Below are positions 45,716-62,028 of a stretch of DNA of 64,000 nucleotides, piece by piece; within the stretch, counting starts at the first letter, position 1; each line of letters starts with the position of its first letter. The stretch is from Thermoplasmatales archaeon SW_10_69_26 (GTDB taxonomy: Archaea > Thermoplasmatota > SW-10-69-26), in NCBI GenBank assembly GCA_003009755.1, contig PXUB01000001.1:62001-126000 (forward strand), in the 5' to 3' direction. The translations under genes and the position numbers were made by a program. The notes under the pieces are model-generated. The model was not told the origin of the DNA. It did not search any database and saw only the letters and a program-made list of their open reading frames with translations.

Positions 45716-45761
45716 CTTAGACCCTCTCGAGGAAATCGGGGCGAGCCAGATTCTGAGGCTC

Positions 45762-45977: not shown

Positions 45978-45994
45978 CTCCTCCTTCCGCGGGG

Positions 45995-46369: not shown

Positions 46370-46686
46370 GCGGGCACGCCCTCGCGGCGGACGTTGCGAA
46401 GTAGGGGGCTGTTGCCTTGCTCGAAGTCCGGCTTGGCTACGGGGACGACGGACAGGAGCACCTCGTGCTCCATGTCGATCTGCCAGGTGAGCTCGCCCAT
46501 CCGGTCGATCTCCTCGAACCGGTCGACCGGGCCCTCGAGGACGACCATCAGGTCCACGTCCGAGGCGTCGGTCGCCTCGCCGCGGGCTTGCGAGCCGAAG
46601 AGGAGCACCTGGTGCAGGCGGTCGCCGTACAGCTCCTGGGCCCTCTGCTTGAAGGCCTCGACGGCCGATCGGGTCGCCTCGTCCAC
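46366..46686 (-). CDS. Minimal nucleotidyltransferase (MNT)
   Basis: 106 residues from the GTG at 46686. The signature LLFGSQARGEATDASDVDLMVV supplies G-S and D-x-D; a third acid is likely in DMEHEVLLSVV. Upstream in-frame sequence to 46911 has no family match. Forms a coupled module with the HEPN gene; such modules act as toxin-antitoxin or defence-linked switches. Confidence 0.82.
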   Translation of the reverse strand: MDEATRSAVEAFKQRAQELYGDRLHQVLLFGSQARGEATDASDVDLMVVLEGPVDRFEEIDRMGELTWQIDMEHEVLLSVVPVAKPDFEQGNSPLLRNVRREGVPA

Positions 46687-46749
46687 GGCAGGCCCTGGTA
46701 GGCGCTCTACGTCCTTTAGGTTCTCGCTTCCGGCCGCCCGCTGAGCACC

Positions 46750-46846
46750 GTCAACCTCCAGTGAACACCATGTCAACCCGCCCGCGCCTCCTGGATCAGC
46801 CCCTTGCCGTTGACGAGGTTGACACCAACGTCGACCCGGCGTTGAC
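46750..46846. promoter_or_regulatory. Cluster of GTTGAC half-sites upstream of the winged-helix gene
   Basis: Five copies of GTTGAC or its complement lie in 97 bp: GTCAAC at 46750 and 46772, GTTGAC at 46809, 46818 and 46841. The two orientations face each other. They fill the gap between the MNT and winged-helix genes and are candidate operators or iterons. Two more (GTCAAC, GTTGAC) occur inside the gene at 47165-47178. Confidence 0.45.
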
Positions 46847-46867
46847 ATCGCCCCGGGAGGGAATCCT

Positions 46868-47640
46868 GTGAGCTCGGTTTCCGAGCTGACCGACGCCCAG
46901 CAGCGGGTCATCGAGCGCCTCTACGAGGGCAAGTACGCGGCCGCGATCGCCGACGAGGTCAACGTCACCCGGCAGGCGGTCAGCAAGCACGTTCGCAAGC
47001 TCGAGGAGAAGGGGCTGATCACCGAGCACGCGGGCGAGACCGCCTTCTACCGCCGCTCGCTCGGACAGGGCACCTCGTTCAAGATCTACGGCCTCACCGA
47101 CGCCGGCCTCCAGGCCCTCCGCGAGGCCCAGGGCCTGGGGCCAGGGGAGACGCCGCGGACGCCGTCAACGGGGTTGACGGAGCCTCCACCGGGGCAGTAT
47201 GAGGACGTCAACGAGCCAGCCGTCCACAACGCGCCAGCCGAGCGTGGGCCGCGGGTCGAGGTGCACAACTATCGAAGTCAAGATCCCGATCGAGGACGAC
47301 CAAGCCAAGCTCTGGCTACCCAACGAAGCCGAGCTCAACAACTGGACCCGCCGCTGGGACGAGAACGTCCACGGCGTCTTCCTCGAAGCCACCACCCGAC
47401 ACCTGCTGCGCGCCGGCGCCGAGGCCCGCTCGGTCGAGATCGCCGAGGGGCTGGTGCTCCGGAAGCTCGTCAAAGCGATCGAGCTGCTCGAGGACGCCTA
47501 CGGGCTCGAGTTGGGCGCGCCCGAGTTCCGCTGCACCTACGAGCCCGGCAAGGGCAAGGTCGGTGTCACCGGCCACCCGCTGGCCGAAGGCCGCGGCCAC
47601 GACGAAGGGGGGCTGGCGACGATCGACGACACGCCCGAGC
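46868..47640 (+). pseudogene. Winged-helix regulator broken by a frameshift
   Basis: Frame 1 (GTG at 46868) encodes a winged helix: DAQQRVIERLYEGKYAAAIADE, then NVTRQAVSKHVRKLEEKG and a wing TAFYRRSLGQGTSF. After about 47270 the protein-like sequence continues one frame over (EVKIPIEDDQAKLWLPNEAELN, NNWTRRWDENVHGVFLEATTRH, GAEARSVEIAEGLVLRKLVKA). A one-base indel in CACAACTATCGAAG would join the halves. The domain order resembles archaeal plasmid- or virus-borne MarR/ArsR-like proteins with a C-terminal sensor. The 3' end dissolves into a NosD fragment on the other strand. Confidence 0.6.
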
Positions 47641-47669
47641 CCGACACGATCCACGCGACCGACGACCCG

Positions 47670-47905
47670 GCGGACGTCGACCACGTCGTGGCAGTCAACA
47701 TCGTCGGGCCCGTCCGCGCACCCCCACCAGTTGTGCCGCGCGTCGACGGTCGTGTCGGTGTTCTCGACCTCGAGCCCAATCCCGCCGGTGTCCTCGAAGT
47801 TCGTCTGCCGCACGGTCACGTTCTGGGTCAGCTCGACGTGCATGCCGGCGTCGGTGTAGTTGGTCACGTCGTTGTGCTGCCAGGTGGGGTCGTTGCGCTT
47901 GTAGC
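47670..47905 (-). pseudogene. Fragment of a NosD-like beta-helix gene
   Basis: On the minus strand: NDPTWQHNDVTNYTDAGMHV, ELTQNVTVRQTNFEDTGG, IGLEVENTDTTVDARHNWWG and CADGPDDVDCHD. That is one to two coils and the NWWG cap of the secreted beta-helix family. No start, no signal peptide, no downstream stop in a sensible place. Tail-to-tail with the broken winged-helix gene. Confidence 0.65.
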
Positions 47906-48035
47906 GTCCAAGCCGATGTCGGCGCTCAGGCCGACGGCAATATCCCTAAGCCGGTCTGTATCCCTGGGGGTCACGCCGAGCTCGGGTTCACCTGGACGGC
48001 TGGGTGACGGGGAGGTCTATCGCCTCCGCTCGCCG

Positions 48036-48590
48036 TCAGAGCCGGCTTCTCCCAAGAAGCGCCCCAACGAAGGCGACGATAAGGAGGAGAGACCCCGGTG
48101 CAGGCGATGCTTTCTCCCCCTCTGGGAACTCGCCACCGTCACCGATCGAACCTTTGTCGTTCTCTTCGTATGGGGGCGTACCCTCGCTGCGGTTGTACTG
48201 GGGGACAGTAAGGCTCCCCTCTTCGCCTCGATCCCGATGGTCTCCCTCGTCACACCAGAACACGTATTCCCCTGGCTGCTCGAGGTGAACCGTCATGGCT
48301 GCCTCCTCGCCCGGCGGGACGGCATCCCCATCCCCGCTCACGCAGTTGATTGTACCGTTGATCTCCATGCAGAGGTCGTGACCGACGGAGCCCTGGTCGT
48401 TGTCTAGGAGGACCGTCACGTTCCCCTTACCCACCTTCTCGCCAGGAGGGTTGAAGCAGTAGGTGTCCCCATCCGGGCAGCCCTCCTCGCGAACCTCGAA
48501 GGCCTGTGTCTCCTCCGCCAGAAGTGACGGGGACGCGAGCGACGCCATCAGAAGGGCGGAGAGGATCACCCGCGTCGTGTCGCCAGCCAT
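48036..48590 (-). CDS. Secreted cupredoxin-like protein with C-terminal anchor
   Basis: 184 residues from the ATG at 48590. Signal peptide (VILSALLMASLASPSLLA), then a plastocyanin-like sandwich: KVGKGNVTVLLDNDQGSVGHDLCM supplies the first His, and EYVFWCDEGDHRDRGEEGSLTV supplies Cys and His in the usual Y-x-F-x-C-x4-H arrangement. The axial Met expected a few residues later is replaced (GEEG), so copper binding may be altered. C terminus: SLLLIVAFVGALLGRSRL anchor. Lower GC than core genes. Confidence 0.7.
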   Translation of the reverse strand: MAGDTTRVILSALLMASLASPSLLAEETQAFEVREEGCPDGDTYCFNPPGEKVGKGNVTVLLDNDQGSVGHDLCMEINGTINCVSGDGDAVPPGEEAAMTVHLEQPGEYVFWCDEGDHRDRGEEGSLTVPQYNRSEGTPPYEENDKGSIGDGGEFPEGEKASPAPGSLLLIVAFVGALLGRSRL

Positions 48591-48741
48591 GAGCAATGCT
48601 ACCCGATGACGACGGAAAAGACGTGGGGAAGGATACGGCCTCTACCGACCAGATTTGAATGTCCTCGAAGTTTCTCTACAATCGATTCTGGTATTCTGTA
48701 CAAGGAAGGTCAAGGGTCCAGGCGCAATTTTTTCCCTCCTT

Positions 48742-50181
48742 ATGGAAAGGAACAATCGAGCAGAGACCGTCCGAGGAACCGTAGGCCTGGCGTTTGTGAT
48801 CCTGCTTGCAGGGGTCGGCCCCTCGGCGATCGCCACCGGGGCTGTCGACCAGATCGATGAACGGTGCCCAGAGACCATCGGAGAAAGCGGTCCGGACCCA
48901 GTATCACGCTGCTCGGCCGAGGACAAGGTGATCTCCGACCGATGCATGCATATCGCCATGGAGGGGGCACAGCTTGACGCAGCCGTTGACTGTGGCGGGT
49001 TCCCGCCGGGAGAAAGCGACCCCTGCGTCAGGGTAGAGGAGGGCCCGCCACCGAGCGTGGCCGTGAACACGGACCTCGGGGCCAACGGGACGGACGCCGC
49101 CAACGTCACCGACAACAGTTCAGTCCAAGCGGGGTCTGGAGGAGCCGGCGGAGATGTTCTCCTGGATCTCGCGGATCCCCACGTCATCCTCATCACCGAC
49201 ACAGCCCAAGTGGCGACGGGGTCAGGCGGCGCCGGTGGCGATGTCAATGTGACTCGCGAGAACCGTACCACGGATACGATCAACGGAACGGCAGGACCCG
49301 GTGGCGACGGAGGGAAATTGGGGATTCTCGCCGAGGCTAACATCAACGGGAATCTCTCAGTCGGCGATGGGGGCGACGGAGGCTCGGCCTACGTGGAACA
49401 CGTCGATGGTCCCTCCGTCAGTCACGGCGGAGACGGCGGTCGACCGGGTCTCCTAGGTCTCCCGACGGCCTACGACGCCGAGAGCCTCCACGAAGCTGGA
49501 CAGCTGGAGGGAGCCAACTCTGGCGACGGCGGCGGAGCCTCCTCGACCTCCCTTTGTGCTCTCGAAACGAATGGTAGTCCTTACTGTGATGGCTCGGGCG
49601 ATACGGATACCAGCACGGACAACGAGGATGGAAGAGACGGGGCGGACGCCAGTGGCCCCGGTAATGCCGGCGGCGACGGCGCAGCCGGCGCCGACGCCTA
49701 CGCCGAGGGTGGTGACGGTGGCCCTAGATGCGTGCTCGTAGATCCCCCAGACCCCTACGAATGCGTTGCCATCACCGGTGGCAACGGCGGCAATGCCATC
49801 GCAGTTGCCGGGGAAGGAGGCCTCGGTGGAAACGGCGGCGACGGTGTGCACAACTCCACCGAGAAAGCGATTCATGGCGGGGACGGTGGAGCAGGCGGTA
49901 CGGGAGGGACGGCCGAGGCTTACGCCGGAAGCGCCGGATGCGCGACGGTCGGTGACCGTTGCGGACAGCCGGGCCATGCGAAGGCCCGGAGCGACGGTGG
50001 GGACGGAGGCATCCCCGGCGGCTCGGGGTGGACCGAAAACCTCTCCCAGACAATCGAAGATAAATGCTCCTCAAACAGCCACGACCTCTGCTGGGAGCCC
50101 ACACGTCCAAAGATGCCTGTGGACACGTCGGCATCGCTGCGAAGGGGGAAATCCAGGGACTATGATTGCCGAGAGCGATGA
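48742..50181 (+). CDS. Glycine-rich secreted repeat protein
   Basis: 479 residues with a signal peptide (GLAFVILLAGVGPSAIATG). The bulk is G-G-D-G-G and G-S-G-G-A-G-G-D repeats (AGSGGAGGDVLLDLADPHV, VATGSGGAGGDVNV, GPGGDGGKLG, GDGGDGGSAYV, HGGDGGAGGTGGTAEA), broken by short beta-like stretches and cysteine pairs. It resembles PGRS-type low-complexity surface proteins in style, without homology being implied. The repeats could form calcium-binding or polyproline-II-like bundles. No anchor is visible. Lower GC and different codon use suggest transfer. Confidence 0.65.
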   Translation: MERNNRAETVRGTVGLAFVILLAGVGPSAIATGAVDQIDERCPETIGESGPDPVSRCSAEDKVISDRCMHIAMEGAQLDAAVDCGGFPPGESDPCVRVEEGPPPSVAVNTDLGANGTDAANVTDNSSVQAGSGGAGGDVLLDLADPHVILITDTAQVATGSGGAGGDVNVTRENRTTDTINGTAGPGGDGGKLGILAEANINGNLSVGDGGDGGSAYVEHVDGPSVSHGGDGGRPGLLGLPTAYDAESLHEAGQLEGANSGDGGGASSTSLCALETNGSPYCDGSGDTDTSTDNEDGRDGADASGPGNAGGDGAAGADAYAEGGDGGPRCVLVDPPDPYECVAITGGNGGNAIAVAGEGGLGGNGGDGVHNSTEKAIHGGDGGAGGTGGTAEAYAGSAGCATVGDRCGQPGHAKARSDGGDGGIPGGSGWTENLSQTIEDKCSSNSHDLCWEPTRPKMPVDTSASLRRGKSRDYDCRER

Positions 50182-50296
50182 TCCGGACAATGAACAGACG
50201 TATCCACGACCGGGGGACGATGGGAGCACTCCATCGTACGATACGGGTTGTGACCACGACAGCCAACATAGCCATATCTGAAGGAGTGCGACAGCC

Positions 50297-50989
50297 ATGA
50301 AACGGAACATCCCGAGAACTGCCATCGTCGGGCTAGGTTCCATTTTGATGCTGACCTTCGCGGCCATACCATCTCTCGCGTCGGACGCTAATCCGCCGGA
50401 CGTGGAGATCGAAGACCGCGTGACCTGGTTCCCTAATGCCCATCACCTTGGCTTCCAAGCCCACGCCGAGGCGTGCGACGAGCGTTCGACTGTACGTCTA
50501 TCTTTGACAATCAAGGAGGTTGGGTCGGCGTCCGAAACCGGGAACTCCCCCTGTTTGGAGGTTTCCGAGACGTTCACCCTCCCCAGCCCGGGAGATCACA
50601 AGGCCAAGGCAGAAGCCCAGGATGATCACGGGAACGAGGCCCGAAATGAAGGAAAAGTGACCTCGAGGATTGTCCCCTTCGATACGGGGTCTGTGCCCGG
50701 TTACCCCCCGCTCGAGGAAATCCGAGAAACGGAGCTCGGTCCGCGTGTCACCATCGAGACGCTGAACGACGCCGGGGGCACAGTGAAGCGCTACGAGGTC
50801 TCTTCGCAGGGGGCCGTCCTGATGAGCACCATGGCCGATGCCGTTCCCGAGGACGGAGACTTCACGACTCGCGCCGTCCTTGACCGTCCTGTTGGATGGG
50901 CCGACGTCCACGTGGACGGTGACGTTACGTGGTCCGGTTTGATTTACCAGTCGTCGGAGGAATGGTGGCATTTCCGCGCTCTCAAGTAA
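50297..50989 (+). CDS. Secreted hypothetical protein
   Basis: 230 residues, signal peptide AIVGLGSILMLTFAAIPSLASD, then an Ig-like segment (PPDVEIEDRVTWFPNAHHLG, EVSETFTLPSPGDHKAKAEA, DDHGNEARNEGKV) with a disulfide-capable pair (ACDERS, SPCLEV) and a second beta domain. ATG at 50297, GAAGGAG 13 bp upstream. Same strand and low-GC style as the glycine-rich protein gene before it. Confidence 0.6.
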   Translation: MKRNIPRTAIVGLGSILMLTFAAIPSLASDANPPDVEIEDRVTWFPNAHHLGFQAHAEACDERSTVRLSLTIKEVGSASETGNSPCLEVSETFTLPSPGDHKAKAEAQDDHGNEARNEGKVTSRIVPFDTGSVPGYPPLEEIRETELGPRVTIETLNDAGGTVKRYEVSSQGAVLMSTMADAVPEDGDFTTRAVLDRPVGWADVHVDGDVTWSGLIYQSSEEWWHFRALK

Positions 50990-51539
50990 TCGTCTCGTGG
51001 TGACCGAGGCAGGGTCGACGGCGAAGCGGAGCAGGCTGCATCCGGCTTGAGCCCGGCGGCCATCTGCATCGACAGCAATGGCCCCGGCGTTCGCCGCTGG
51101 CCACCTCGCCGACGTAGCGCTCGACCGAGATCCCTCTCGTGATACGTCTCCGGGTAGCCCGGGATCCAGCCGTCGGTGACGAGCGCCTCCAGCCCCAACC
51201 GTGACGAGATCCCGCCTCCCACGGGGCGATCATCGTCTTCGACGAACCGACGAGCTCGCTGTCGGGGACCGATCGGGGTGGGCGTGCAGGTGGTAGGCCC
51301 GCCAGGCCGTCCGCGAGGCGTCGGCGAACACCGTCTCGCTGAGCGCCACGATGCCCTCCACGTCCCTGCGGACGGCGGTCCCGCCCCGTGGATGGACCAT
51401 CGCGCCGGGCAATCCTGCGCGAGCGGGAGCGCCTTCCGCCGTGTGGCATCCACGCCAGACGTTAAGACCATCTCTCCACAACGTTAGAGCCTCCGCGGGC
51501 TGACCAGCGATTACCCCGACGTGACCACCGGCGGTAGAG
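50990..51539. other. Decayed coding region
   Basis: Minus-strand fragments in two frames (RRDVEGIVALSETVFADASR with AWRAYHLHAHPDRSPT; then RRFVEDDDRPVGGGISSRLG, LEALVTDGWIPGYPE) read as one protein interrupted by a frameshift near 51230. No start or family can be given. Nothing else is seen. Confidence 0.4.
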
Positions 51540-51662
51540 CTAGGGTTTTTCCTCGCGGCCACGCACCCACCGATAGAGGATCCACGCGGAGACTCCCAAC
51601 AGCAGGGCCACGACGAGAGCGATGATCAGTGAGGCGATCTCCACCTGGCGGAGCCCGAACAT
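51540..51662 (-). CDS. 40-residue single-helix membrane miniprotein
   Basis: ATG at 51662, stop at 51540. It reads MFGLRQVEIASLIIALVVAL then LLGVSAWILYRWVRGREEKP: one transmembrane helix with a positively charged tail. AATAATACATAC (minus strand, 51691-51702) is a good TATA-like box about 35 bp upstream. The compact reading frame and promoter make it a credible small gene of unknown role. Confidence 0.55.
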   Translation of the reverse strand: MFGLRQVEIASLIIALVVALLLGVSAWILYRWVRGREEKP

Positions 51663-51707
51663 GGTCAGATGTTTTAGAACTGCTTGTTGTATGTATTATT
51701 CTAATGG

Positions 51708-51953
51708 GTGCGGGACCAGGCATTCGCCTGGCTGCAGGCCAGATCCGTCGGCGACCTGCTAACAACTCCGGAGACTTTTCTGTTTGAGGATGTCAAAGGG
51801 AGATGGGCTTACCCGCACATCCTCGACGAGGGCCGGGACCTAGAGTGCCATTACGTGATCACGGACGAGCCCACCGAAGGCGGCGTCACGTGGAACGACC
51901 AACCCAGCGGCGACGACCTGAACCTGCAGGACACGACGGCCACGAGAACGTGA
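51708..51953 (+). CDS. Short hypothetical reading frame, possibly a remnant
   Basis: 81 codons (FAWLQARSVGDLLTTPETF; PHILDEGRDLECHYVITDEP; GVTWNDQPSGDDLNLQDTT). It has moderately protein-like composition but begins without a promoter at the right distance and ends just before the tRNA-Glu repeat cluster. Could be a gene fragment left by insertion. Confidence 0.3.
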   Translation: MRDQAFAWLQARSVGDLLTTPETFLFEDVKGRWAYPHILDEGRDLECHYVITDEPTEGGVTWNDQPSGDDLNLQDTTATRT

Positions 51954-52139
51954 ACACCACCAAGAAAAACTACGAGAACGAAGCCCGGTACCCCCAGAAC
52001 CTGTATGGAGACCGCTGGCTGTTGCGAGCGCTCGAGGACTCGCTGGCGGTCTCGAGGCTCGGACGGACCCTCGCTGGCGCTTCGGCTCCGTCGAGCTTCT
52101 CGACGGCTGCGCCGCCGTGGGGGATCAGCCGTCGAGAAG

Positions 52140-52584
52140 TGGTCCCGTCGGGACGCAGAGATCCGAGGCATCGATGCAGAACGAGGACCTCTGCCGACGA
52201 CGGGAGCACGAGGCCTGCAGATACCGTGGAAAGAGGCCGAGTGGTCCCCTCGGGATTCTCGTACGAACCTCGCTTCGCTCGGTTCGGACGGCTCGCAAGC
52301 CCTTCCCGCTTGCTCGTAACCTGTGGTTCAAATCCCTCGGTCCCACTTCCTCTGGATGGTGGGCGAGAAGCCGCCCGTCGGGATCTCAAGACGTGGCGGA
52401 GACCGGGCACGTCTTGAGAGACGACGGGACCACGAGCGAACGTGGCCACAGGAGAAGGTGAGCGAGTGGTCCCGTCGGGATGCAGAGGGCCGAGACGACG
52501 ATGCAGAACGAGGACCTCTGCAAACGACGGAGACCCGAGGCCTGGAGATACCGGAGAAAGAGGCCGAGTGGTCCCGTCGGGGAC
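52140..52584 (+). repeat. Stack of tRNA-Glu 3'-end copies and 101-bp units (left attachment cluster)
   Basis: TGGTCCCGTCGGGA or a one-base variant occurs at 52140, 52242, 52468 and 52569, always in the orientation of the authentic tRNA end at 60935. Two 101-bp units (52155-52255, 52482-52582) match 45615-45715. Between them lie palindromes (CGAACCTCGCTTCGCTCGGTTCG at 52264-52286, CAAGCCCTTCCCGCTTG) and a half tRNA T-arm (GGTTCAAATCC, 52324). This is the expected left border of elements integrated at tRNA-Glu, duplicated several times. No gene is seen in 51954-52670. Confidence 0.7.
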
Positions 52585-53075
52585 TATCCTCCATACCGGG
52601 AGGGGCTGGAGCCAAAACCGCCCCCGGTTTTGACGGTTTCCGGCTTGGACCCTGATACGTGGACGGCGAACCCGTCCGCGTCTCCCTCTTTCTCCATTTC
52701 AGACCCCCCACCTTCTCCGACCCCGACGACGAGCCGAGCGTGCCGCAGCGCCCTCCGAGGGGCGACCGGCGATCAGGTCGGGCGGCCCATCATGGTCCCG
52801 CCCGAGCGACAGCGAGGGCGGGGCCTTGATGAGCGCCGGCCGATGCTCCGCCAGCCCCGAGGGGAAGCGAAGGCACGCGAGGCAGGAGGAGCGGGGAGCG
52901 GCCCCGACGGCGAGCCGAGACGCCGTAGCGACCCTCCGAGGCTCGCCCGCCAACCGTCAACCTCACCCGCCAACTTCCCCCACAAGCAGACTCGGGAACG
53001 GGCCGTCGAAGGCGGGTGCGGAGAAACCTGGAAACCAGCCACGCACTCTTGTCTAGTAGACGGAAGCGCACGCAC

Positions 53076-53098
53076 GGGCCGCCCCTATGGGGCGGCCC
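53076..53098. promoter_or_regulatory. Perfect 10-bp hairpin upstream of rep
   Basis: GGGCCGCCCC and GGGGCGGCCC are separated by three bases and end 24 bp before the Rep GTG. It could be the nicking hairpin of a double-strand origin, a regulator of rep, or a terminator. A small palindrome, TCTAGTAGA, lies 25 bp further upstream. The rest of 52670-53075 shows no gene. Confidence 0.45.
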
Positions 53099-53121
53099 GC
53101 TCGGTGTATCCTGCCCCTACG

Positions 53122-54105
53122 GTGGACTACGATGCAGCCCCACCCTCCACAGACGAGGCCCAGCATCCGCCCGCCGTCTTCGCCACCCTTCCCGGCCAAG
53201 CCGACGAATGCGGCGAGAGCGAGTGCGGCAACGTCATCGGAGCCGAAGCCTGCTCCCATGCCGAGCACAACCCTGAGGACCACGACCTTCGGCTATTCTA
53301 TCAGACCTGCGAAGGCCGCACCTGTCCCCAGGGATTCGAGGACTGGATTAACGACCGCGCCGACAAAGCCCTCCACCGGCTCGTTGACGGAAAGAAGGCC
53401 TACGCTGAGGAAGGCAAGAACCTCGGCCCGGTCAAGCACGTAATCTTCTCCCCACCCCCGGAGGAGACCGACGCCTATCGAAACGAGGATGGCTACGGCC
53501 AGCTCGTCCGCGATGCCTACGAGCACGCCCGCGAGGCCGGTATGGATGGGGGCGTGGCTATCCCGCACCTCTGGCGGCTCTCAGACGACCTCAAAGCCTG
53601 CCTGCGAGACGAAGGCTATGGAATCGGTGAGGAGAACGGCGGCCTCTGGCAAGGCGTCCACGACGACGCACTCGGCCTCGGCCATTGGCGAACCTACGTC
53701 ACCTTCAGCCCCCACGTTCACCTCCTCGGTACCGGCTACCTGGAAAACGCCCGAGAGTTCAACGACCGAACGGGCTGGGTCTACCACAACAAGGGAAAGC
53801 GTCCCTCGCCGGGCTCGGTCCATTCCACGGCCGCCTACATCCTCAGCCATGCCGCCCTTGTGGACGGCAGCCGCGCCCTCCGCTGGTGGGGTGTCTTCTC
53901 CTACAACAAGCTCGCCAAGGTCGAAGAACTCGTCCGCCGAGAGCCGAAGACATGCGAATGCGGCGAGCCGATCTATGAGTACCCGACCACCAAGGACGGT
54001 ACCCGCGTCGGCTGGGAGCATCGGGGCTCTCCAGCAGAACGGGTGGAGAAGACCGTTCTCTATCGGGTCGTGGGCAAGCCTCCGCCGGGGGGAGTGCAGT
54101 GTTAG
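53122..54105 (+). CDS. rep: HUH-family rolling-circle replication initiator
   Basis: 327 residues from the GTG at 53122. The three motifs of HUH endonucleases appear in order: motif 1 KHVIFSPPPEE (near residue 105), motif 2 TFSPHVHLLGTGY with the H-U-H metal pair (near residue 200), and motif 3 SVHSTAAYILSHA with the nicking tyrosine (near residue 250). Cysteine clusters at both ends (CGESECGN, CEGRTCPQG, CECGEPIY) may bind zinc. The arrangement recalls Rep proteins of haloarchaeal plasmids and pleolipoviruses. It would nick one strand at the element's origin. Frame continues upstream to 52480, but that part is low-complexity and antisense-like. Confidence 0.75.
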   Translation: MDYDAAPPSTDEAQHPPAVFATLPGQADECGESECGNVIGAEACSHAEHNPEDHDLRLFYQTCEGRTCPQGFEDWINDRADKALHRLVDGKKAYAEEGKNLGPVKHVIFSPPPEETDAYRNEDGYGQLVRDAYEHAREAGMDGGVAIPHLWRLSDDLKACLRDEGYGIGEENGGLWQGVHDDALGLGHWRTYVTFSPHVHLLGTGYLENAREFNDRTGWVYHNKGKRPSPGSVHSTAAYILSHAALVDGSRALRWWGVFSYNKLAKVEELVRREPKTCECGEPIYEYPTTKDGTRVGWEHRGSPAERVEKTVLYRVVGKPPPGGVQC

Positions 54106-54215
54106 AGGTGGAGTGCGAGCGATGTGGCCATACGTGGATGGAACACGGAGTGGCCCAATGGGAATGTCCGCGATGCGGGAGCCTTTACGGTCGGTGGCCC
54201 GCAAACCGCGACTAG
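54099..54215 (+). CDS. 38-residue zinc-ribbon miniprotein overlapping rep
   Basis: GTG at 54099 overlaps the rep stop by 7 bp. The sequence has C-E-R-C-G-H at residues 5-10 and C-P-R-C-G at 23-27, a minimal zinc ribbon, and ends WPANRD. Coupled translation with rep suggests an accessory or copy-control factor. Small zinc fingers of this kind are common in archaeal plasmids and viruses. Confidence 0.6.
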   Translation: MLEVECERCGHTWMEHGVAQWECPRCGSLYGRWPANRD

Positions 54216-54292
54216 CCGCCCAACACCCGTTCGATAAGTAATCGTCCCGTCCGAGGATACCGCCTTCTCTCATCGGGAACGAAGATGAAGCG

Positions 54293-55405
54293 ATGGACGG
54301 CGTTCCGCGACCGGAGTCCCGGCTTGTTTCGCCTCCGACGGAGGGGAAACTACAATTTAGCTGGGCTGCTTTAGACCCGGACGCGGAGACTGAGGGAGCG
54401 GCTGTGGAAGATGGTTTCGAATATCCGGGCTATCTGCTGTTCAACGAGATTGTACATGTCCAGGAAATCGGCTTCGATGGCCCGCAGACGATAGGAGAGG
54501 AGCTTTCGACTTTCGGAGACGGGACCCCCACCAATCCATCGAAGGGGTTTCGGCAGCTTGATCTGAGTGAGGAGGTCGACGTGCGGGTATTCGAGACTGA
54601 GAGCTTCGCCCCTGTCGTCGAAGATATGCAATCCTTCGAGTATATAGCAGAAGATTACGGTACCCAAATGGAGTTCGTGACAGGCGAGGGGGACCGCCAA
54701 CAGGGACGCCCCAGAAGCTTGGACCGAGCCCATATCCATTGGCATTGGCCCGACTACTTCTTCGTCCAAGGGTCACAATCTGTTGCCGAAGCTGCAGCAG
54801 AGGAGATAGTTTCAGAGCTGGACTTGGACAGCGCAGATGTTCAGCGTTTCACCTTTGACAACGATTTCTTCTTATGGATGTACAAGAAGAATCACGACGG
54901 AGACCCCCTTTCTGAATCACTGGATCTGCTCAAGTGGACTGACGCGGAAGCGACGGGCGATCTTCCCTACCTCGGGAGTTCGACAGAAGTCCAGGAGTCA
55001 GAGGACGTTGGGCGTTCTATACCCATCCTCGTCGCGGTCCTACGGAATATGGACCTAGCCTCGCTGGAGGGAATCTTCGAGGTAGGCTCGTACGCGATGA
55101 CAGCTAGCATCGGAAGCCAAGGCAAAGTCCACGTTAAATCCGAGCAGACTGTGCAGAAAGCGTCCAATATCGCTCGGGTCTTTCTGTCAAATCTTTTCCT
55201 CCACGAACTTACCAACCTCTACGAGAACTGGAAAACTCTAGATCCTGAGGAGAAATACCCTCATCCCTCCTTCTTCTCTAGCCTCTGGGATAATGCCTCT
55301 GAACAAGGCGCCAACCTTGACATGGACTTCGACAGAGTCGTCGAGGAATACGCTGCGAAGCGTGGAGAGAGCGCAGAAGACTATGACTTCGATTTCGGTA
55401 ACTAG
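54293..55405 (+). CDS. Unrecognised 370-residue protein of the integrated element
   Basis: Soluble, acidic, mixed alpha/beta. Notable segments: HIHWHWPDYFFVQGSQSVAEA near residue 145, DNDFFLWMYKKNHDGD near 190, ILVAVLRNMDLASLEGIFEV near 245, and KVHVKSEQTVQKASNIARVF near 285. No catalytic signature or known domain can be named. Low-GC codon use. First of three unknown genes before the methyltransferase, 12 bp before the next; probably one operon. Confidence 0.65.
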   Translation: MDGVPRPESRLVSPPTEGKLQFSWAALDPDAETEGAAVEDGFEYPGYLLFNEIVHVQEIGFDGPQTIGEELSTFGDGTPTNPSKGFRQLDLSEEVDVRVFETESFAPVVEDMQSFEYIAEDYGTQMEFVTGEGDRQQGRPRSLDRAHIHWHWPDYFFVQGSQSVAEAAAEEIVSELDLDSADVQRFTFDNDFFLWMYKKNHDGDPLSESLDLLKWTDAEATGDLPYLGSSTEVQESEDVGRSIPILVAVLRNMDLASLEGIFEVGSYAMTASIGSQGKVHVKSEQTVQKASNIARVFLSNLFLHELTNLYENWKTLDPEEKYPHPSFFSSLWDNASEQGANLDMDFDRVVEEYAAKRGESAEDYDFDFGN

Positions 55406-55416
55406 GGGTGTGAGAT

Positions 55417-56043
55417 GTGCTGAAAGCCTTGAGAAAAGTGGAAGGCGCCTCCGGCACCCACCCCAGAAGCCAAAACACAGAAAGCCTGCGGCTAGAGCTC
55501 CGCGACGAATGGCGCCTGAATCAAGCGGCCCTTGATGACTATCCATTTCTTGATCAGTTAGTGCTGGAGGGACGGTATGAGTATTCAAAAGATCCGACCT
55601 GGGGATCACCGGAGCACGTCGATGGTTCCTTCCAACTCCGGACGGCCTCTGGCCTCCTTCTGATAGAGATCAGCGCAGATCGCCCATCCCCGACGGAGCT
55701 CGCGAAGGAATTCGATAAGGCTATCGATTCGGGCTTGCGTGTGAGCAGGGACTTCGTACCCTCTCGCGGGAAAGTGTGGTCTTTCGTTGATCAGGCGGAT
55801 AGCGTTCTGAGTCTCCGGGCTCGAGACGAGACAGGACAGGTACGGAATCTTGCGGAAGTACATGACGCACAAAACCCCAGAGAATGGACCGTAGAACACG
55901 CGAGCTTGAAGTTCGGTTATGGTGGCGGATTCTTCCTCGATTTCGAGCGAGACTCAATCTCCATATACGGAGTCGATGAGGGGGATGAGGAGCCAGCGAT
56001 AGAAACTCTGGAAGTTGCCTTTTTGACAGGGATTTGGGACTAG
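55417..56043 (+). CDS. Unrecognised 208-residue protein of the integrated element
   Basis: GTG start 12 bp after the preceding stop. Mostly beta-strand-like sequence in the middle and end (SFQLRTASGLLLIEISADRP, SLKFGYGGGFFLDFERDSIS, IYGVDEGDEEPAIETLE). No known domain. The next gene starts 12 bp downstream. Confidence 0.6.
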   Translation: MLKALRKVEGASGTHPRSQNTESLRLELRDEWRLNQAALDDYPFLDQLVLEGRYEYSKDPTWGSPEHVDGSFQLRTASGLLLIEISADRPSPTELAKEFDKAIDSGLRVSRDFVPSRGKVWSFVDQADSVLSLRARDETGQVRNLAEVHDAQNPREWTVEHASLKFGYGGGFFLDFERDSISIYGVDEGDEEPAIETLEVAFLTGIWD

Positions 56044-56054
56044 GGGGTCCTGGG

Positions 56055-56630
56055 GTGTCCACAGAGAGAATCAAAATATTTTGGAACAGAGCCCGGGAGT
56101 GGAGATGGTTTGGCTTCTTCACTTATGCGTCCACATTCCCTTGGATCGGCAGCTCATTCTTCCAGTCCTTTTCAACCGAGTGGTTTCTAATTGTCGGAGC
56201 AGCCCTTCTCACTCATGTTTTCCCTCTAGTCTGGGTGGGACTGACGCAGAGGCCGTTTTATCTAAAGGTCGATTGGGTCCCCTTAGACGATGAGGGCGTA
56301 GCTTGGCGGAGGAAGTCGTCAGGGATCGTAGCGATGGAAAATGGATCTGGCGCCATCCAGGTCTTCTTTGAGGTAATTGAAGGTGCGGAGGATATCGAGG
56401 TCTCTGTGGACGCTGATACGCCTTACTATGCGAGCCCTAACCAGCCTCCTGCACCCCTTCGCTGGAGAGATGGCACGCTCTTGTTGGAAGATGGAGACTT
56501 GGAGAATAGGGAGTTCTACGTCAAGATAGAGCTCGTCCAGGATAGTGCTCTGGCTGGCGGAATGGACCATGAAGTCTATCTCCAGGATGAGCGGTCAGGG
56601 AAGGAGCTGTTGAGGGTACCCATCAATTAG
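56055..56630 (+). CDS. Unrecognised membrane protein of the integrated element
   Basis: 191 residues. Two transmembrane helices near the N terminus (WFGFFTYASTFPWIGSSFF and WFLIVGAALLTHVFPLVWVG) precede a cytoplasmic or external beta-rich domain (IQVFFEVIEGAEDIEVSVD, GTLLLEDGDLENREFYVKIE). GTG start at 56055. Membrane-anchored effectors are common in defence operons; whether this is one is unknown. Confidence 0.6.
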   Translation: MSTERIKIFWNRAREWRWFGFFTYASTFPWIGSSFFQSFSTEWFLIVGAALLTHVFPLVWVGLTQRPFYLKVDWVPLDDEGVAWRRKSSGIVAMENGSGAIQVFFEVIEGAEDIEVSVDADTPYYASPNQPPAPLRWRDGTLLLEDGDLENREFYVKIELVQDSALAGGMDHEVYLQDERSGKELLRVPIN

Positions 56631-56761
56631 GCTTCCGGAGGGCCAACCGGGGAGTCTTCCGGTCTCTCCGGCAACGATGAGGTCCTTCTTCACGGTGAAG
56701 GGAGTATCCTCTTAGGCAGGGAACTGGTTGCTCTACTCACTCCGACTGAGCGAGGGGATGG

Positions 56762-58159
56762 ATGATGGCGCTCCAAGAACCGATTCCCGGGCCAGATAGC
56801 GGAAAGCGGAACAAGCTCCTAGACCGGGACCGGGAGATACACGATTGGTATCGGTTCGTATTGGGGTATCCGCCCCACCTTGTCCGCCTCTACCTCGATA
56901 GGTTGGAAGCTGAACCCGGTGAAGACAGGGTACTTGATCCATTCTCGGGTACGGCCACAACACCCGTCGAAGCCCGGAAGAACGGCTTTTCGACCATCGG
57001 TGTTGACGCAAATCCGATAACTAGCTTGGCCACCCGCGTCAAGCTTCGATGGGGGTTGGATACGGACGACCTCATAGAACAGCTTGCCTCGATCATAGAT
57101 GACGCCGCTGGCCGTCTCCTTGCTCACGATCTCGACCCGCTTGTAGACGGAGGCTTCCAAACTCGTCTTGAGGACAAGGCGTTTGAAGGAGACATACCCG
57201 ATCTCGGCGCCCTAACCTCCGGCGCGGCCCCTTCTGAGCCAGTCAACGTTGATGTTATCCTCTCGGAGAGCGCCAAGAAACTCATTCCGAAAGGGTTCAT
57301 CAGCGAGAAGCCCCTCAAACGAGTTCTCGCACTCCGGCTGGCAATAGAGGAGAATACCGAGGTCATCGAACGAGAGGAGTTCTTCTTCCTAGCCCTATCG
57401 AACACAGTCGTTTCCACGGCAGGTAACCTCGGCTTCGGGCCAGAAGTATATCGAAAGAGCCCGAAAGAGGATGCTGGAGTGTTGTCGGATTTCTTCGGCG
57501 TATCGGCCCAAATGATCCACGATCTAACCCGAGTCCAGAATCAAGGGGATCTGCCGTCCGCCTGGACTCGTTCCGGGGACGCTCGGACAATGGATTGTTT
57601 AGAGGGTCTCCCACCCAGCGATCTGATTATCACTTCACCGCCTTATCCGAACGAGAAGGACTACACGCGGAGTACTCGCCTGGAAACCGTCTTGCTCGGG
57701 CTCGTGGAGGAGCAGTCGGATGTTCAAGACATCAAGAGGTCACTGCTCGTCAGCAACTCCCGGAATTGCTACGTTGATGTAGATGATGGGAAGCATATCG
57801 AGGACATAGACGAGATTACCTCCCTCGCGGACAGGATTGAAGAAAAGCGGATTGAACTTGGCAAGGATTCAGGGTTCGAGAAAAAGTACCACGAGATAGT
57901 TAGGCATTATTTCGGCGGTATGTACCTGCATTTCGAGTCCTTGAAGGACCACCTTAACCCCGGTGCGAAGCTCGCGTATGTCGTCGGAGATCAACAGTCC
58001 TATTTCCGCATCAATATCCCAACGGCGGACCTTCTGGAGAAAGTTGGTAAGAAGGCGGGATACCAGCCTCTCGATACAGAGCTATGGCGCGAGAGGTTTG
58101 CTACGGAAACCGAAAAGACGATTGATGAAAACGTGCTCCTCCTGGAGTACCCAGGATAG
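56762..58159 (+). CDS. DNA methyltransferase (N6-adenine or N4-cytosine)
   Basis: 465 residues. SAM-binding motif I is LDPFSGTATTPVEARKNG (near residue 60), followed by IGVDANP; the catalytic motif IV is TSPPYPNEKDY (near residue 285). About 215 residues between them could contain the target-recognition domain, the alpha-like order. TSPPY alone does not decide between N6-A and N4-C. ATG-ATG at 56762. Ends 5 bp before the nuclease-like gene, so the pair is probably a restriction-modification operon. Confidence 0.85.
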   Translation: MMALQEPIPGPDSGKRNKLLDRDREIHDWYRFVLGYPPHLVRLYLDRLEAEPGEDRVLDPFSGTATTPVEARKNGFSTIGVDANPITSLATRVKLRWGLDTDDLIEQLASIIDDAAGRLLAHDLDPLVDGGFQTRLEDKAFEGDIPDLGALTSGAAPSEPVNVDVILSESAKKLIPKGFISEKPLKRVLALRLAIEENTEVIEREEFFFLALSNTVVSTAGNLGFGPEVYRKSPKEDAGVLSDFFGVSAQMIHDLTRVQNQGDLPSAWTRSGDARTMDCLEGLPPSDLIITSPPYPNEKDYTRSTRLETVLLGLVEEQSDVQDIKRSLLVSNSRNCYVDVDDGKHIEDIDEITSLADRIEEKRIELGKDSGFEKKYHEIVRHYFGGMYLHFESLKDHLNPGAKLAYVVGDQQSYFRINIPTADLLEKVGKKAGYQPLDTELWRERFATETEKTIDENVLLLEYPG

Positions 58160-58164
58160 TCCAG

Positions 58165-58977
58165 ATGTCTGAGGATGAAGCGACCGTCGAAATAGCCGGG
58201 TCAGAGATTCGCCTGACTCAGTTCTCAGACTACGAGCAAGTTCTCCTCGCTGTCTTTGCGGAGCACTACGAGGAAGGCGATGAGGAGATTGAGTTCGAGA
58301 AGGATGAGTTCGCCGACGCCGCAGATGATCTGGGTCTGAGAATAAGGAACATCCCGGACGTGGTCTACGCTTTCCGATCCCGTAGGCCTCTGCCAGACCC
58401 AATCACGACCATTGGAGATTGGATAATCCAGCCGGCAGGCAAGGGGTCATACAAATTCCAATTGCTACAGAGCGCCCCTCAGTTCGATTTGAACTTTGAG
58501 GCGTATCAGCCGATTGAAATCTATAACTCGGTTCCGGAGGTAGTTCAAAAATTCCTTCGGGACGATGAGCAGTCTCTACTCACTACCATCCTATACAACA
58601 GAGTCATCGATATTTTCACAGGGCTAACCTGCTTCCATATCCAGAACCACTATCGGGCCAGCGTCCCAGGCACCGGCCAAGTCGAGCTCGACTCTTTTTA
58701 CGTTGGCGTGGACGACAAGGGAGAACTTTACGCGATCCCTATCGAGGCGAAAGGTGCAGCGGAATCCGAGAAAATCGGGCGGGTGCAAGTAGCACACATG
58801 TCGGAACTCGCACAACAAGATTTCCCTAACTTAGACCGCCGGATTCTCGCCATCAAAGAATTGGAAGATGGGACGATCTGTGCCGTCGAGTTCTCAGAAG
58901 GCGATTCGCCGGACGATTACAAAGTGAGACAAGTCCGGCGATTCGATCTAATACGAGAAGACCGCACTCGTCCGTAG
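58165..58977 (+). CDS. Probable restriction endonuclease partner (PD-(D/E)xK-like)
   Basis: 270 residues. The second half contains ELDSFYVGVDDKGELYAIPIEAKG: an acidic residue, a short hairpin and E-A-K, the usual PD-(D/E)xK core, near residues 175-195. The first third (DLGLRIRNIPDVVYAFRSRR) looks like a helix-turn-helix or recognition module. Placement 5 bp after a DNA methyltransferase supports the role of cognate nuclease. Recognition site unknown. Confidence 0.65.
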   Translation: MSEDEATVEIAGSEIRLTQFSDYEQVLLAVFAEHYEEGDEEIEFEKDEFADAADDLGLRIRNIPDVVYAFRSRRPLPDPITTIGDWIIQPAGKGSYKFQLLQSAPQFDLNFEAYQPIEIYNSVPEVVQKFLRDDEQSLLTTILYNRVIDIFTGLTCFHIQNHYRASVPGTGQVELDSFYVGVDDKGELYAIPIEAKGAAESEKIGRVQVAHMSELAQQDFPNLDRRILAIKELEDGTICAVEFSEGDSPDDYKVRQVRRFDLIREDRTRP

Positions 58978-58981
58978 AAGG

Positions 58982-59635
58982 CTAGTCCGCCTTGTCCGGT
59001 CTGGTCCTTTTCTTTTCCTCCTCATCCAGGAGGTTGGGAGGATGATGACCTCGCTGGAGAGGGTAGGGCCAGGGATCGGGCGGAGTCCAGACATTCGCGC
59101 AGGCAGGGCACGCCCAATCGAGCCCAACCCGCCAATCAGCAATCTTCAACGCAAGGTCGTGGTGCTCCTCTGCCTCTCCTTCTTCGACCGGCTTCCTGGC
59201 TCGCGGGCTCAGGTACCAGTCCGGGATTTCCCTCTCAGGAATCCGCTTTGGTAGAGGATAAGGGTCAATCAGGTACCAAGTCCCGCACTCGGTACATCTC
59301 ACCCGTTGTTGAGGCTGGACGCACTCAGCGTTTTCGCACCGCCCGGACCCTTCCTGGATCGAGTCGGCGCAAGCGACACAGTATCTCGCCTGACTGAGAG
59401 AGACATAGCCCCCAGCCCCAGGGGAGTGAATAACACGATATTCTTTCTTCAGTTCCCTCAGAGCACGGTTTTGCGTTCCGGACGGCTCTCCGCTGAACAG
59501 CTCTCGCTTGGAAGCGGGGCCATCCTCTAATTCCGTGAGGACTGCCTCTTTCTCCTCCTCTTGTCGACTCTTTGCCACCTCAGACTCCCCTCCTTGGACC
59601 CGCTCGCCCTTCTTCTTGGACCCATTCGGGCCCAT
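58982..59635 (-). CDS. Winged-helix protein with zinc ribbons
   Basis: 217 residues. A charged N terminus is followed by a winged-helix-like segment (AVLTELEDGPASKRELFSG, QNRALRELKKEYRVIHS), then a treble of cysteine pairs: CVACADSIQ, CENAEC, CTECGTWY, and CPACANVW. It is probably a DNA-binding regulator of the element. Convergent with the nuclease gene, divergent from the recombinase. Confidence 0.6.
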   Translation of the reverse strand: MGPNGSKKKGERVQGGESEVAKSRQEEEKEAVLTELEDGPASKRELFSGEPSGTQNRALRELKKEYRVIHSPGAGGYVSLSQARYCVACADSIQEGSGRCENAECVQPQQRVRCTECGTWYLIDPYPLPKRIPEREIPDWYLSPRARKPVEEGEAEEHHDLALKIADWRVGLDWACPACANVWTPPDPWPYPLQRGHHPPNLLDEEEKKRTRPDKAD

Positions 59636-59889
59636 TGACGGCTCCGCCTACTGATGTGCTAGGGCGAGAATGAGAGCGTGCTTCGCTGGCCCGGGCGGTT
59701 CCCCTCCCGACCCGGGCCGGCGGGGCCACCTTAAGCATGTCCGCTGAGAAGCCATCCGCCCCAGGCTCGAAAGGGTTTCCCCCTGGATCACTCGCCGTCT
59801 CCCCCTCACGGAACGGGGAAAGCTCCAACTCACCGTCTCCTCCTGCGGCCCGTGGAGGTGAACGCCCAACACCACACACGGGCACACCG

Positions 59890-60953
59890 ATGGCCGAACC
59901 CTGGCAAAACGAACACAACGCCAGGGTCCAAGCGATACTTGAGCGAAGCAACACGGCAGAGTTCGATCCGACCCGAGAGGGCTGGAAGCAATGGATGAAG
60001 GAGGACCGTGGACTGGCGACGAAGACCCGGGCCAGCTACATTCGGAGCCTCGACCGACTCGAACGGAACGGAGTCCTGACGGATGGCTCGGTCGGGGATT
60101 TCGTCTTGACCGCCCGGGAGCACTTCTTCCACCGCCGAGACGTGGAGGAGCGCCAGCGACCACTTTGAAGAACGACCTGAAGGCGATCAAGTGCTATGGC
60201 GATTATCTCGGCGTCCCCCGGAAACTTTGGCCGAAACAGCCCACGGTCAAGCAGAAGACCACCAAGCTACCCAGCCCCGAAGCCGTCCGCCACCTCCTGA
60301 CCGACAACTACCGGGAGGACTCGACCCGCAACGAGCTCGTTCTGACTGTCATGCGGGTCATGTTCGGGCTAGGACTCAGACCCAAGGAGGCCTACGAACT
60401 CCGGCTCCAACACTTCTACCCGGAGGACCACCTCCTCCGAGTCCCGAGCGTAAAGAACTCGGCGGACGGAACAGAACCGCTCATCATCGAACCGGAATGG
60501 CTCTGCTGTGGAACCACCCGGCCCAGCCTGCTGAACTGGGTCGAGCACCACCGACCGAAGCTCGACCCTACGACGGACGCCATGTTCCCGCACTTCGAAG
60601 GCGGGGACTGGCCCTCCGCCGAGGCCTTCTGGCAATACATCAAGCGCCCGGTGAAGAAGGTCTACCCGGGCTACTGGAACCGCCTCGGCCGCAAGTGGTC
60701 CGTCAACGCTCGCCTGATCGAGAGCAAGCAAGGCAGCCGGTACGACTGGAGGGGCGTGGCCAAGTTTCATCGACACACTACCGACACGTCAGTTCGGAAC
60801 TACGAGCAGTCGGTGGAACTCCACGAGAAGCTGTACGGCGACAACTGGATCACACGCGCCTTCCAGAAGCTCCCGGGCGAGGAAACCGAGCCTCGCTGGG
60901 GGGTTTTGGACCCGTCCTCTTCTGGGGAGTACGATGGTCCCGTCGGGATTTGA
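59890..60953 (+). pseudogene. int: Tyrosine recombinase (integrase) interrupted by a frameshift
   Basis: The N-terminal half (ATG 59890, core-binding domain: EGWKQWMKEDRGLATKTRAS, YIRSLDRLERNG) runs in one frame to a stop at 60168. The rest (LKNDLKAIKCYGDYLGV, catalytic domain) continues from about 60150 in another. A minus-one shift at GTGGAGGAGCG would restore one 355-residue protein. Catalytic elements: Arg in FGLGLRPKEAYELRL, a box-II-like RKWSVNARLIES, His in FHRHTTDTS and the nucleophile in SVRNYEQ. The last 19 bp lie inside tRNA-Glu. It is a decayed gene, a programmed shift or a sequencing error. An ATG at 59737 is an alternative start. Confidence 0.75.
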
Positions 60954-61009
60954 ACCCGAGTGGTCGCCTCGAGAGGGCGAAATGATTGGCCGGACTACAC
61001 CACGGGACC
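60935..61009 (-). tRNA. tRNA-Glu (CTC), integration target
   Basis: Acceptor GGTCCCG/CGGGACC, discriminator A; T arm TCGGG-TTCAAAT-CCCGA; anticodon stem TCGCC/GGCGA with loop CTCTCGA (anticodon CTC). No intron. Its 3' end is shared with the end of the recombinase gene and copied at 45702, 52140, 52242, 52468 and 52569. Confidence 0.93.
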
Positions 61010-61204: not shown

Positions 61205-61683
61205 GCGGGGGTAGCCTAGCCAGGTCATTCGAACGGATCGGAGATCCGTCCTCTCCCGGGATCCGCGCGAGTCGCCGTCGGTTCCCGGGATTCGCACGGA
61301 CCTCGCACCGTCGTCGGTTCGTACTCGCCCGAGAAGGCAAGCTTCTCGGGCATCCGTACGGCCAAGGCCGTACTCGCTCGGAACCGAAACACGGTTCCTC
61401 GCGGAAACCTTGACCTGGAGGCGACCTCCATCGGCACAAGTCTGCGGAGGTAGCCTAGCCAGGTCATTCGTACGAACCGTTCATCCCTGCCGGTTCGTAC
61501 TCGCCCGAGAAGGCAAGCTTCTCGGACAGGAAACCTTGACCTGGCAGGCTCCCTCATTGCCACGAGGTCTGCGGAGGTAGCCTAGCCAGGTCATTCGCAC
61601 GAACCGCGCGATCGCTACCGGTTCGTACTCGCCCGAGAAGACGAGCTTCTCGGGCAGGAAACCTTGACCTGGAAGCTACCTCC
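61205..61683. repeat. Array of tRNA-Ser 5'-half copies, direct and inverted, around hairpins
   Basis: GCGGAGGTAGCCTAGCCAGGTC, the first 22 bases of tRNA-Ser(TGA), recurs at 61205 (two mismatches), 61444 and 61571. Each copy is followed by ATTCG, one or more hairpins (ACGAACCG...CGGTTCGT; CCCGAGAA...TTCTCGGG), then an inverted version of the same tRNA piece (CCTTGACCTGG..., at 61408, 61534 and 61662). Three modules of 115-225 bp therefore lead up to the intact tRNA at 61698. Within 61010-61204 nothing is recognised. Confidence 0.75.
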
Positions 61684-61697
61684 ATCCCACGGTATCC

Positions 61698-61781
61698 GCG
61701 GAGGTAGCCTAGCCAGGTCAAGGCGCCGGTCTTGAAAACCGGTGGGCCTAGCCCACGGGAGTTCAAATCTCCCCCTCCGCG
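61698..61781 (+). tRNA. tRNA-Ser (TGA)
   Basis: Acceptor GCGGAGG/CCTCCGC, discriminator G; anticodon stem CCGGT/ACCGG with loop CTTGAAA (anticodon TGA); long variable arm GTGGGCCTAGCCCAC; T loop TTCAAAT. An intact class II tRNA lying in the middle of its own fragment array. Confidence 0.93.
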
Positions 61782-61786
61782 CTTCT

Positions 61787-61985
61787 CCAGGGCAAGGCGC
61801 CGGTCCCGCAGGACGCCCGTCAGGGCGTCCGAGGTGCGGACGAACCGACGATTGGAGGGTTCGTCCAGCATTGAAAACCGGTGGGCTTAGCCCACGGGAG
61901 TTCGAATTCCGGGACCGAGCCTGCCGGCGCCTCGGCCCCGCAAGAGCACGGATCTGTGATCCGTGCGAATCTCCCCCTCCGCGCT
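61787..61985 (+). pseudogene. tRNA-Ser pseudogene interrupted by two palindromic insertions
   Basis: The pieces CCAGGGCAAGGCGCCGGTC (61787-61805), TTGAAAACCGG through GTTCGAAT (61871-61907) and GAATCTCCCCCTCCGCGCT (61967-61985) reconstruct tRNA-Ser(TGA) from the D arm to the 3' end. The first insertion (65 bp) splits the anticodon loop, the second (59 bp) the T loop. Both consist of paired hairpins: GGACGCCCGTCAGGGCGTCC and GGACGAACC...GGTTCGTCC; CCGAG...CTCGG and GCACGGATCTGTGATCCGTGC. The 5' acceptor half is missing, so it cannot be a functional tRNA. Confidence 0.7.
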
Positions 61986-62028
61986 TCTCTTCCCCGACGA
62001 GCCATCTGGCTCTCCAGCCCCCACCCCT

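Follow-up and report, generated by a model that had tools for sequence, protein, structure and literature searches.

Gene-less hairpin modules bearing copies of gene ends in a Thermoplasmatales archaeon, and their likeness to the RtT repeats of Escherichia coli

The tRNA-Ser locus

Toward the end of the 64,000-nt stretch of DNA analysed here—'the window', positions 62,001 to 126,000 of contig PXUB01000001.1 of Thermoplasmatales archaeon SW_10_69_26—an intact tRNA-Ser(TGA) gene stands among fragments of itself, some direct and some inverted, interspersed with hairpins:

61698-61782, plus strand: tRNA-Ser(TGA), the target gene, intact (ARAGORN and Rfam)
61205-61429, minus strand: upstream module 1, with 5'-end copy, several hairpins and inverted D-arm region (sequence, repeats)
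61444-61556, minus strand: upstream module 2, with 5'-end copy, two hairpins and inverted copy
61571-61683, minus strand: upstream module 3, with 5'-end copy, two hairpins and inverted copy
61787-61989, plus strand: second, partial tRNA-Ser with hairpin pairs, terminating in another tRNA 3'-end copy

An earlier note on this DNA had described three modules ahead of the gene and hairpins behind it, and the coordinates and repeats confirm this. Each module recopies the first 23 nt of the tRNA (at 61205-61227, 61444-61466 and 61571-61593) and closes on the inverted D-arm region (61408-61429, 61535-61556 and 61662-61683, respectively). R1 matches lie on the minus strand: at C1:123219-123306 for module 1, C1:123457-123546 for module 2 and, weakly, C1:123584-123674 for module 3. 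In design, these are the downstream modules of other tRNAs, mirrored onto the 5' side of the gene. The hairpin pairs of the partial copy behind the gene are located in its anticodon loop (61806-61870) and its T loop (61908-61967). We considered archaeal tRNA introns as a reading and rejected it: the intact gene is free of inserts, and the hairpins are confined to second, partial copies.

Hairpin pairs inside tRNA loops do speak for a palindromic transposon—of the REP/BIME kind, or derived from IS200/IS605—that a Y1 transposase would insert into the single-stranded D, anticodon and T loops, as do the REP sequences that adjoin tail modules at proK and tyrT of E. coli. Such elements, however, neither regenerate the gene they target nor bring a foreign gene end with them, and we consider an origin of this kind highly improbable.

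The tRNA-Tyr and tRNA-Glu loci, and integrated elements

Modules are also present at two other tRNAs in the window:

25508-25623, minus strand: tRNA-Tyr(GTA), with an ordinary intron (ARAGORN, introns allowed)
25287-25507, minus strand: two tandem modules of about 106 bp behind tRNA-Tyr
60935-61009, minus strand: tRNA-Glu(CTC), target of integrative elements
59991-60953, plus strand: ORF for the tyrosine integrase of the tRNA-Glu element (Phage_integrase match at E=6e-4, short of the family cut-off)
52138-52584, minus strand: module array, distal end of tRNA-Glu element
45600-45716, minus strand: another module with the tRNA-Glu 3' end, almost identical to one of those in the 52-kb array

The tRNA-Tyr gene was overlooked by the default tRNA scan and recovered once introns were allowed. 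In each of its units the tRNA 3' end is followed by hairpins, then by the inverted 3' end and a further hairpin, so that the alternation of end and inverse previously noticed here stands, as does that of tRNA-Glu 3' ends with hairpins. The 52-kb array comprises some five tRNA-Glu 3'-end copies, together with inverted copies and differing hairpins.

Adjoining this array is an element of ∼8.4 kb (52585-60934), integrated in tRNA-Glu(CTC), that encodes an N6/N4 DNA methylase and the tyrosine integrase listed above, the end of whose ORF overlaps the 3' end of the tRNA. Judged by an HVHLLG stretch, the ORF at 52480-54105 possibly encodes an HUH-replicase-like protein; a family search with this ORF gave no match supporting that reading. 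The region from 45717 to 52137 is probably an older element that used the same tRNA-Glu site, the second one there: an integrase-like C-terminal fragment lies at ∼51.8–52.0 kb, and a tRNA-Glu module, near-identical in its two copies, sits at either end of the region.

Three integrases are recognizable in the whole genome, each adjoining one tRNA: Glu(CTC), Phe and Gly(CCC). The tRNA-Phe element (L187:1996-15745, contig C19), of ∼13.4 kb, has its integrase adjacent to the tRNA, with hairpin modules at the other, far end. The tRNA-Gly(CCC) element (L059:3131-7582, contig C2), of ∼4.4 kb, has a DNA methylase and an integrase split by a frameshift, and its right end has GAGGCACCC..GGGTGCTAGG in common with the element that ends near 45.8 kb in the window. 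Modules might have been a component of every integrated element; we rejected this, since only the tRNA-Gly element has one—a full hairpin module—directly ahead of its distal gene-end copy. At tRNA-Phe and tRNA-Glu the modules are situated past the integrated element, so that the arrays, instead of being parts of the elements, may be tails of the host that were there before and were shifted outward.

Anatomy and fold of the module

A downstream unit begins behind an intact tRNA with a trailer of ∼10–30 nt, followed by S', which is the T-arm and tRNA 3' end inverted. Then come the 5' strand of the T-arm, hairpin H1, GA, hairpin H2, GAA, the 3' strand of the T-arm and, once more, the tRNA 3' end. 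The number of hairpins per unit varies from one to four, and the modules are 100–250 bp in size and gene-less. GATGAGAA followed by GGTTCG occurs in the downstream modules of Arg-TCG, Leu-TAG, Arg-TCT, Gln-TTG, Leu-TAA and Met; other downstream modules have the exact inverse, GATTTGAAC or GATTCGAAC. The GATGAGAA-GGTTCG inverted T-arm is absent from the modules upstream of tRNA-Ser and from those of tRNA-Tyr. Where units are tandem at one tRNA, they have the gene end and the trailer in common, and differ in their hairpins.

Ten units share a fold, a four-way junction. One of its stems, P0, forms between S' and the second gene end; the others are the small hairpin of the T-arm, H1 and H2. Cells are paired in the named structure in 95.8% of cases, against 78.6% in shuffles; 58 cells are double-changed, against 19 expected from shuffles; and covariation is 0.51, against 0.18 when shuffled, with a slide of the partner by a single column abolishing the signal. 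P0 covaries with the tRNA that it serves, three of its pairs changing with the tRNA.

Extent in the genome and among its relatives

We analysed the stretches around tRNAs, module matches and controls throughout this genome (2.8 Mb, 49 contigs, 68% GC). The earlier note had described a pattern of three tRNA loci; the pattern is real, but its extent was put too small. Modules are genome-wide, with 27 of the 41 tRNAs having a nearby copy of their own end, a downstream hairpin cluster, or both—where absence from other tRNAs had been named as grounds for abandoning the idea—and some protein genes have them, too. Hairpins near tRNAs and elsewhere were counted, as had been proposed: at least two lie within 400 nt downstream of 21 of the 41 tRNAs, compared to 8 of 291 control windows (p ∼8e-16), and these controls exclude chance hairpins arising from a composition of 68% GC. 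Perfect hairpins of at least 9 bp number 9.7/kb over the 100 nt immediately behind tRNAs, and are down to ∼0.5/kb beyond 400 nt downstream. When tRNAs were compared by BLAST with their own 1.5-kb flanks, 58 partial copies were found, a few of which are neighbouring tRNA genes, versus 3 with a reversed-tRNA control. Related hairpin families are reused at different tRNAs and genes, in keeping with the reuse between loci that had been reported earlier.

A genome in 49 contigs, with repeats at many of its tRNAs, raises the suspicion that the arrays are an assembly artefact of a metagenome bin. The same architecture occurs in complete chromosomes of E. coli and Paenibacillus, however, and compensatory covariation is not obtainable from assembly errors; we regard the chance of this as negligible.

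The modules are spread patchily. None of 11 tRNAs is affected in a genome of the same family, and one of 13 in a genome of the same class; a relative from that class, G002, has a simpler form of the module at a few tRNAs. A covariance model, run on 194 genomes of the phylum, found one further genome (G021), and this model misses the simpler variants of G002.

Several other repeats came to light. A hairpin family, TTCTCGACGG...CCGTCGAGAAG, lies directly behind the ends of tRNA-Val, -Met and -Ala (L022, L015, L054, L028), and also at 52090-52140 in the window. A dispersed repeat (L057:13350-13700, L057:17100-17460, L065:11750-12000) combines a TTTTTC-rich stretch with hairpins of the H1/H2 type, and some of its copies stand behind protein genes. 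L064:5283-5690 and 16451-16768 in the window belong to a separate family with AAAATTTTCC and GATACCGCGTGA motifs, tandem or inverted. At 28698-28999 in the window, with no tRNA near, copies of a 77-nt direct repeat lie 225 nt apart with hairpins between them.

Modules on the ends of protein genes

The genes gyrB and tfb, and one for a rhodanese, carry the same module at their 3' ends, and this rules out a mechanism specific to tRNA. The gyrB gene is followed by S', by three hairpins and by a second copy of its own last 103 nt. The first 33 nt of the two copies are identical; thereafter they differ at 11 sites, nine of them third codon positions and two of them first. The end copies of the rhodanese gene and tfb differ by changes that are silent or stop-for-stop, and for the three genes together 12 of the 14 differences in sense codons are at position 3 (p ∼8e-5). 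Both end copies therefore evolved as coding DNA. Local duplication, with decay of the downstream copy, would not yield a divergence biased to silent sites. The silent-site divergence suggests instead that the gene end was imported from elsewhere rather than templated by the resident gene; an end derived from another lineage, such as integrative elements bring in, would produce it. Exchange by homologous recombination with a module-bearing strain is the remaining way in which gyrB, tfb and the rhodanese gene might have diverged like this.

These observations tell against the suggestion, made earlier, that the modules are templated by the resident tRNA. Nor is tRNA-primed duplication favoured, given the mirrored modules on the 5' side of tRNA-Ser, the protein genes, and the terminators found between tRNA and module in several bacteria. 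The notion of palindromic elements that insert into tRNA genes fares better—there is indeed a covarying family, and it lies behind most tRNAs—but its restriction to tRNAs falls with gyrB, tfb and the rhodanese gene.

A second mode of local origin is fold-back, or template-switch, replication. A polymerase stalled in the palindrome of the tRNA or gene end would copy its own strand, producing S', and then go back to the original template, producing the second end; slippage would expand the tandems, and no dedicated enzyme would be called for. Local sequence copied in inverted orientation, or repeated directly in tandem, is what template switching typically leaves, and the modules display both; the repeated unit, moreover, includes trailers and even terminators. 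The silent-site divergence of the gene-end copies goes against this, as do the occurrence of related hairpin families at different tRNAs and genes, and the recurrence from Paenibacillus to archaea of an identical departure from the perfect inverted T-arm, GATGAGAAC. The inserts at tRNA-Lys of E. coli, for their part, bear other trailers. On balance, we find this explanation, one of the two main rivals to a miniature element, unlikely.

The closest known systems

Modules of this kind do have a precedent: the RtT repeats of E. coli (Rfam RF00391) have the same architecture. In both, a copy of the host tRNA 3' end closes each unit, units are in tandem, and the boundaries are at tRNA ends. Shared as well are the inverted T-arm GGATGAGAA, GGTTCG as 5' strand of the T-arm, and the hairpins, after which come GAGTA and, beginning at ATCC, the tRNA end. 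Descriptions of RtT treat it as a small RNA belonging to a single operon, whereas the archaeal set amounts to tens of units at many tRNAs and on protein genes, with different hairpins and with scores far under the Rfam cut-off. At the gathering cut-off, 45 bits, RtT has no match in the window, and it has none in L120 up to E=1; its best non-enterobacterial match, at 28.0 bits, is an Auribacterota unit. A second model, sX4 (RF02223), spans tRNA-Ser and the start of a module, ending in UGGGGGGUGAGA, and matches the tRNA-Ser tails of Clostridia and Paenibacillus below cut-off; it carries the annotation of a proteobacterial sRNA rather than that of a tail module.

The attP site of CTX phage and the attC sites of integrons are recombination sites formed by one folded DNA strand, conserved in structure and variable in sequence. 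The modules resemble them in that their fold is conserved despite changes of sequence, covariation exceeding that of shuffled and slid controls. They differ in that their target is a gene end, rather than dif or attI, and single-strand use is inferred in their case.

Archaeal integrative elements of the SSV and pNOB8 types generate, like the modules, a direct repeat of the target end and a regenerated gene; unlike them, solo modules are gene-less, and consist only of hairpins and an inverted end copy. For archaeal elements, inheritance of attP mismatches by the rebuilt gene has been reported (PMC3293823). A disrupted tRNA of Caldiarchaeum, in which a tRNA fragment accompanies an intact tRNA, has been read as site-specific integration (PMC3293823); that case, a 1.8-kb insertion with a putative recombinase gene, involves a single locus and no hairpin modules (PMC3293823).

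Our literature search, made in open-access papers, returned no paper on RtT or tRNA-tail elements. Within that literature we found no description of a genome-wide, cross-domain class that in part targets protein genes; RtT itself was already known.

Other genomes, E. coli and viruses

An exact pattern, S' plus the T-arm strand, was sought in 84,980 species genomes. Ten stretches match: in bacteria, three from Paenibacillus, two contigs of one Clostridia MAG, and one each from Auribacterota and Bacteroidales; in archaea, one from Woesearchaeota and two contigs of one Euryarchaeota MAG. With few exceptions they are situated immediately behind a tRNA gene, and in several a second tRNA end follows; the others are truncated or cut off by the end of the contig. 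The Paenibacillus genomes have four to nine pattern matches each. In Paenibacillus, Clostridia and Bacteroidales, and at proK of E. coli, a terminator-like hairpin with a T-run separates the tRNA from the module, which favours a unit that acts at the level of DNA.

In E. coli K-12 a single RtT unit separates tyrT from tyrV, and tyrV is followed by three more. Units of the RtT type occur in E. coli not only at tRNA-Tyr but also at tRNA-Pro, -Lys and -Arg; those at tRNA-Lys (lysT operon) and tRNA-Arg (argQZYV operon) are unannotated. The S' and the end of the proK units fit tRNA-Pro, and their hairpins resemble those at tyrT. At two tRNA-Lys genes, strains differ: one strain lacks the units, while another has them as exact inserts of 98 and 100 bp with different trailers. 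The comparison of empty and filled sites that was called for earlier has thus been made in E. coli; recombination among near-identical tRNA genes can account in part for the polymorphism. At proK, O157:H7 differs in copy number, with no truly empty site. RtT matches number from 1 to 14 per genome, with none in 731 of 5,426 E. coli genomes; at tRNA-Tyr, RtT is widespread (4,695 of 5,426), as if kept.

Could the modules, rather, be putative structured RNAs, co-transcribed with the tRNA, freed by tRNA 3' processing at the second end, in the way described for RtT of the tyrT operon, with their structure under selection and the copied end serving as processing site? Their architecture is that of the Rfam RtT RNA, which in E. 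coli stretches from directly behind one CCA up to that of the copied end, and they covary strongly. Wobble pairs on the module strand outnumber A-C mismatches by 6 to 3, a difference that is not significant. Yet the ends of gyrB and tfb have no tRNA processing site; the modules upstream of tRNA-Ser are mirror images; intrinsic terminators come between tRNA and module in the four bacterial settings named above; and copy number in E. coli varies as described. We take this reading seriously, but judge it unlikely.

Three exact-pattern scans of 2.9 million viral contigs found no modules, and with this we reject the idea that they are attP sites of known phages or viruses. A BLAST search with RtT gave one phage record, chromosome-like, and plasmid records, several of them chromosome-sized.

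A possible mechanism

To our minds there is about an even chance that the archaeal RtT-like units are non-autonomous miniature elements, recombined site-specifically at gene ends by way of a folded attachment site. Each unit consists of a copy of the target gene end, a trailer, S' and one to four hairpins, and is placed behind an intact gene. A unit in that position implies that the gene has been regenerated and its old end left downstream, much as attL and attR flank an integrated element; a direct repeat of the target gene end accompanying an intact gene, as in integrative elements, is what we find. Filled and empty orthologous sites, differing by 98–100 bp, are likewise found at the tRNA-Lys loci of E. 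coli. S' would pair with the split gene end while the hairpins are extruded, in single-stranded or cruciform DNA, and the structure so formed would be the attachment site, which a tyrosine recombinase, encoded elsewhere, would join to the chromosomal gene end. In favour of such elements we also count the silent-site divergence of the protein-gene ends, the covarying fold, the change of hairpins between tandem units, the module in the tRNA-Gly element, the patchy spread and the terminators. Against them count the small number of integrases in the genome, the result of the viral scans, the possibly displaced tails at tRNA-Phe and tRNA-Glu, possible recombination among tRNA-Lys genes and the wide occurrence of RtT at tRNA-Tyr. 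Solo modules, moreover, contain no integrase of their own, and have no room for a gene. Repeated events, along with unequal recombination, would give rise to the tandem arrays. The recombinase, the single-strand step and the mobility at the present day are parts of this scheme that we infer.

More tentatively, and with somewhat less confidence than for the archaeal units by themselves, we suggest that there might be a class of such elements that crosses domains: gene-less, mobile, ∼100–250 bp long, inserting, in the form of folded single strands of DNA, at the ends of tRNA genes and conserved protein genes, and each bringing the gene end that replaces the old one. The RtT repeats of E. coli, and its unannotated tRNA-Lys and tRNA-Arg tails, would then be members.

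Significance

An unexplained oddity of E. coli, the RtT repeats of tyrT, is joined here to a phenomenon that is genome-wide in an archaeon, and to tRNA tails in several bacterial phyla. Should the modules turn out to be RNAs, after all, the class would still be far wider than Rfam shows. If mobile, they would rank with the smallest integrative elements that lack genes; they would account for an exchange of gene ends between lineages, at gyrB or tfb for example; and they would offer a testable instance of site-specific recombination by a folded strand outside integrons and CTX phage.
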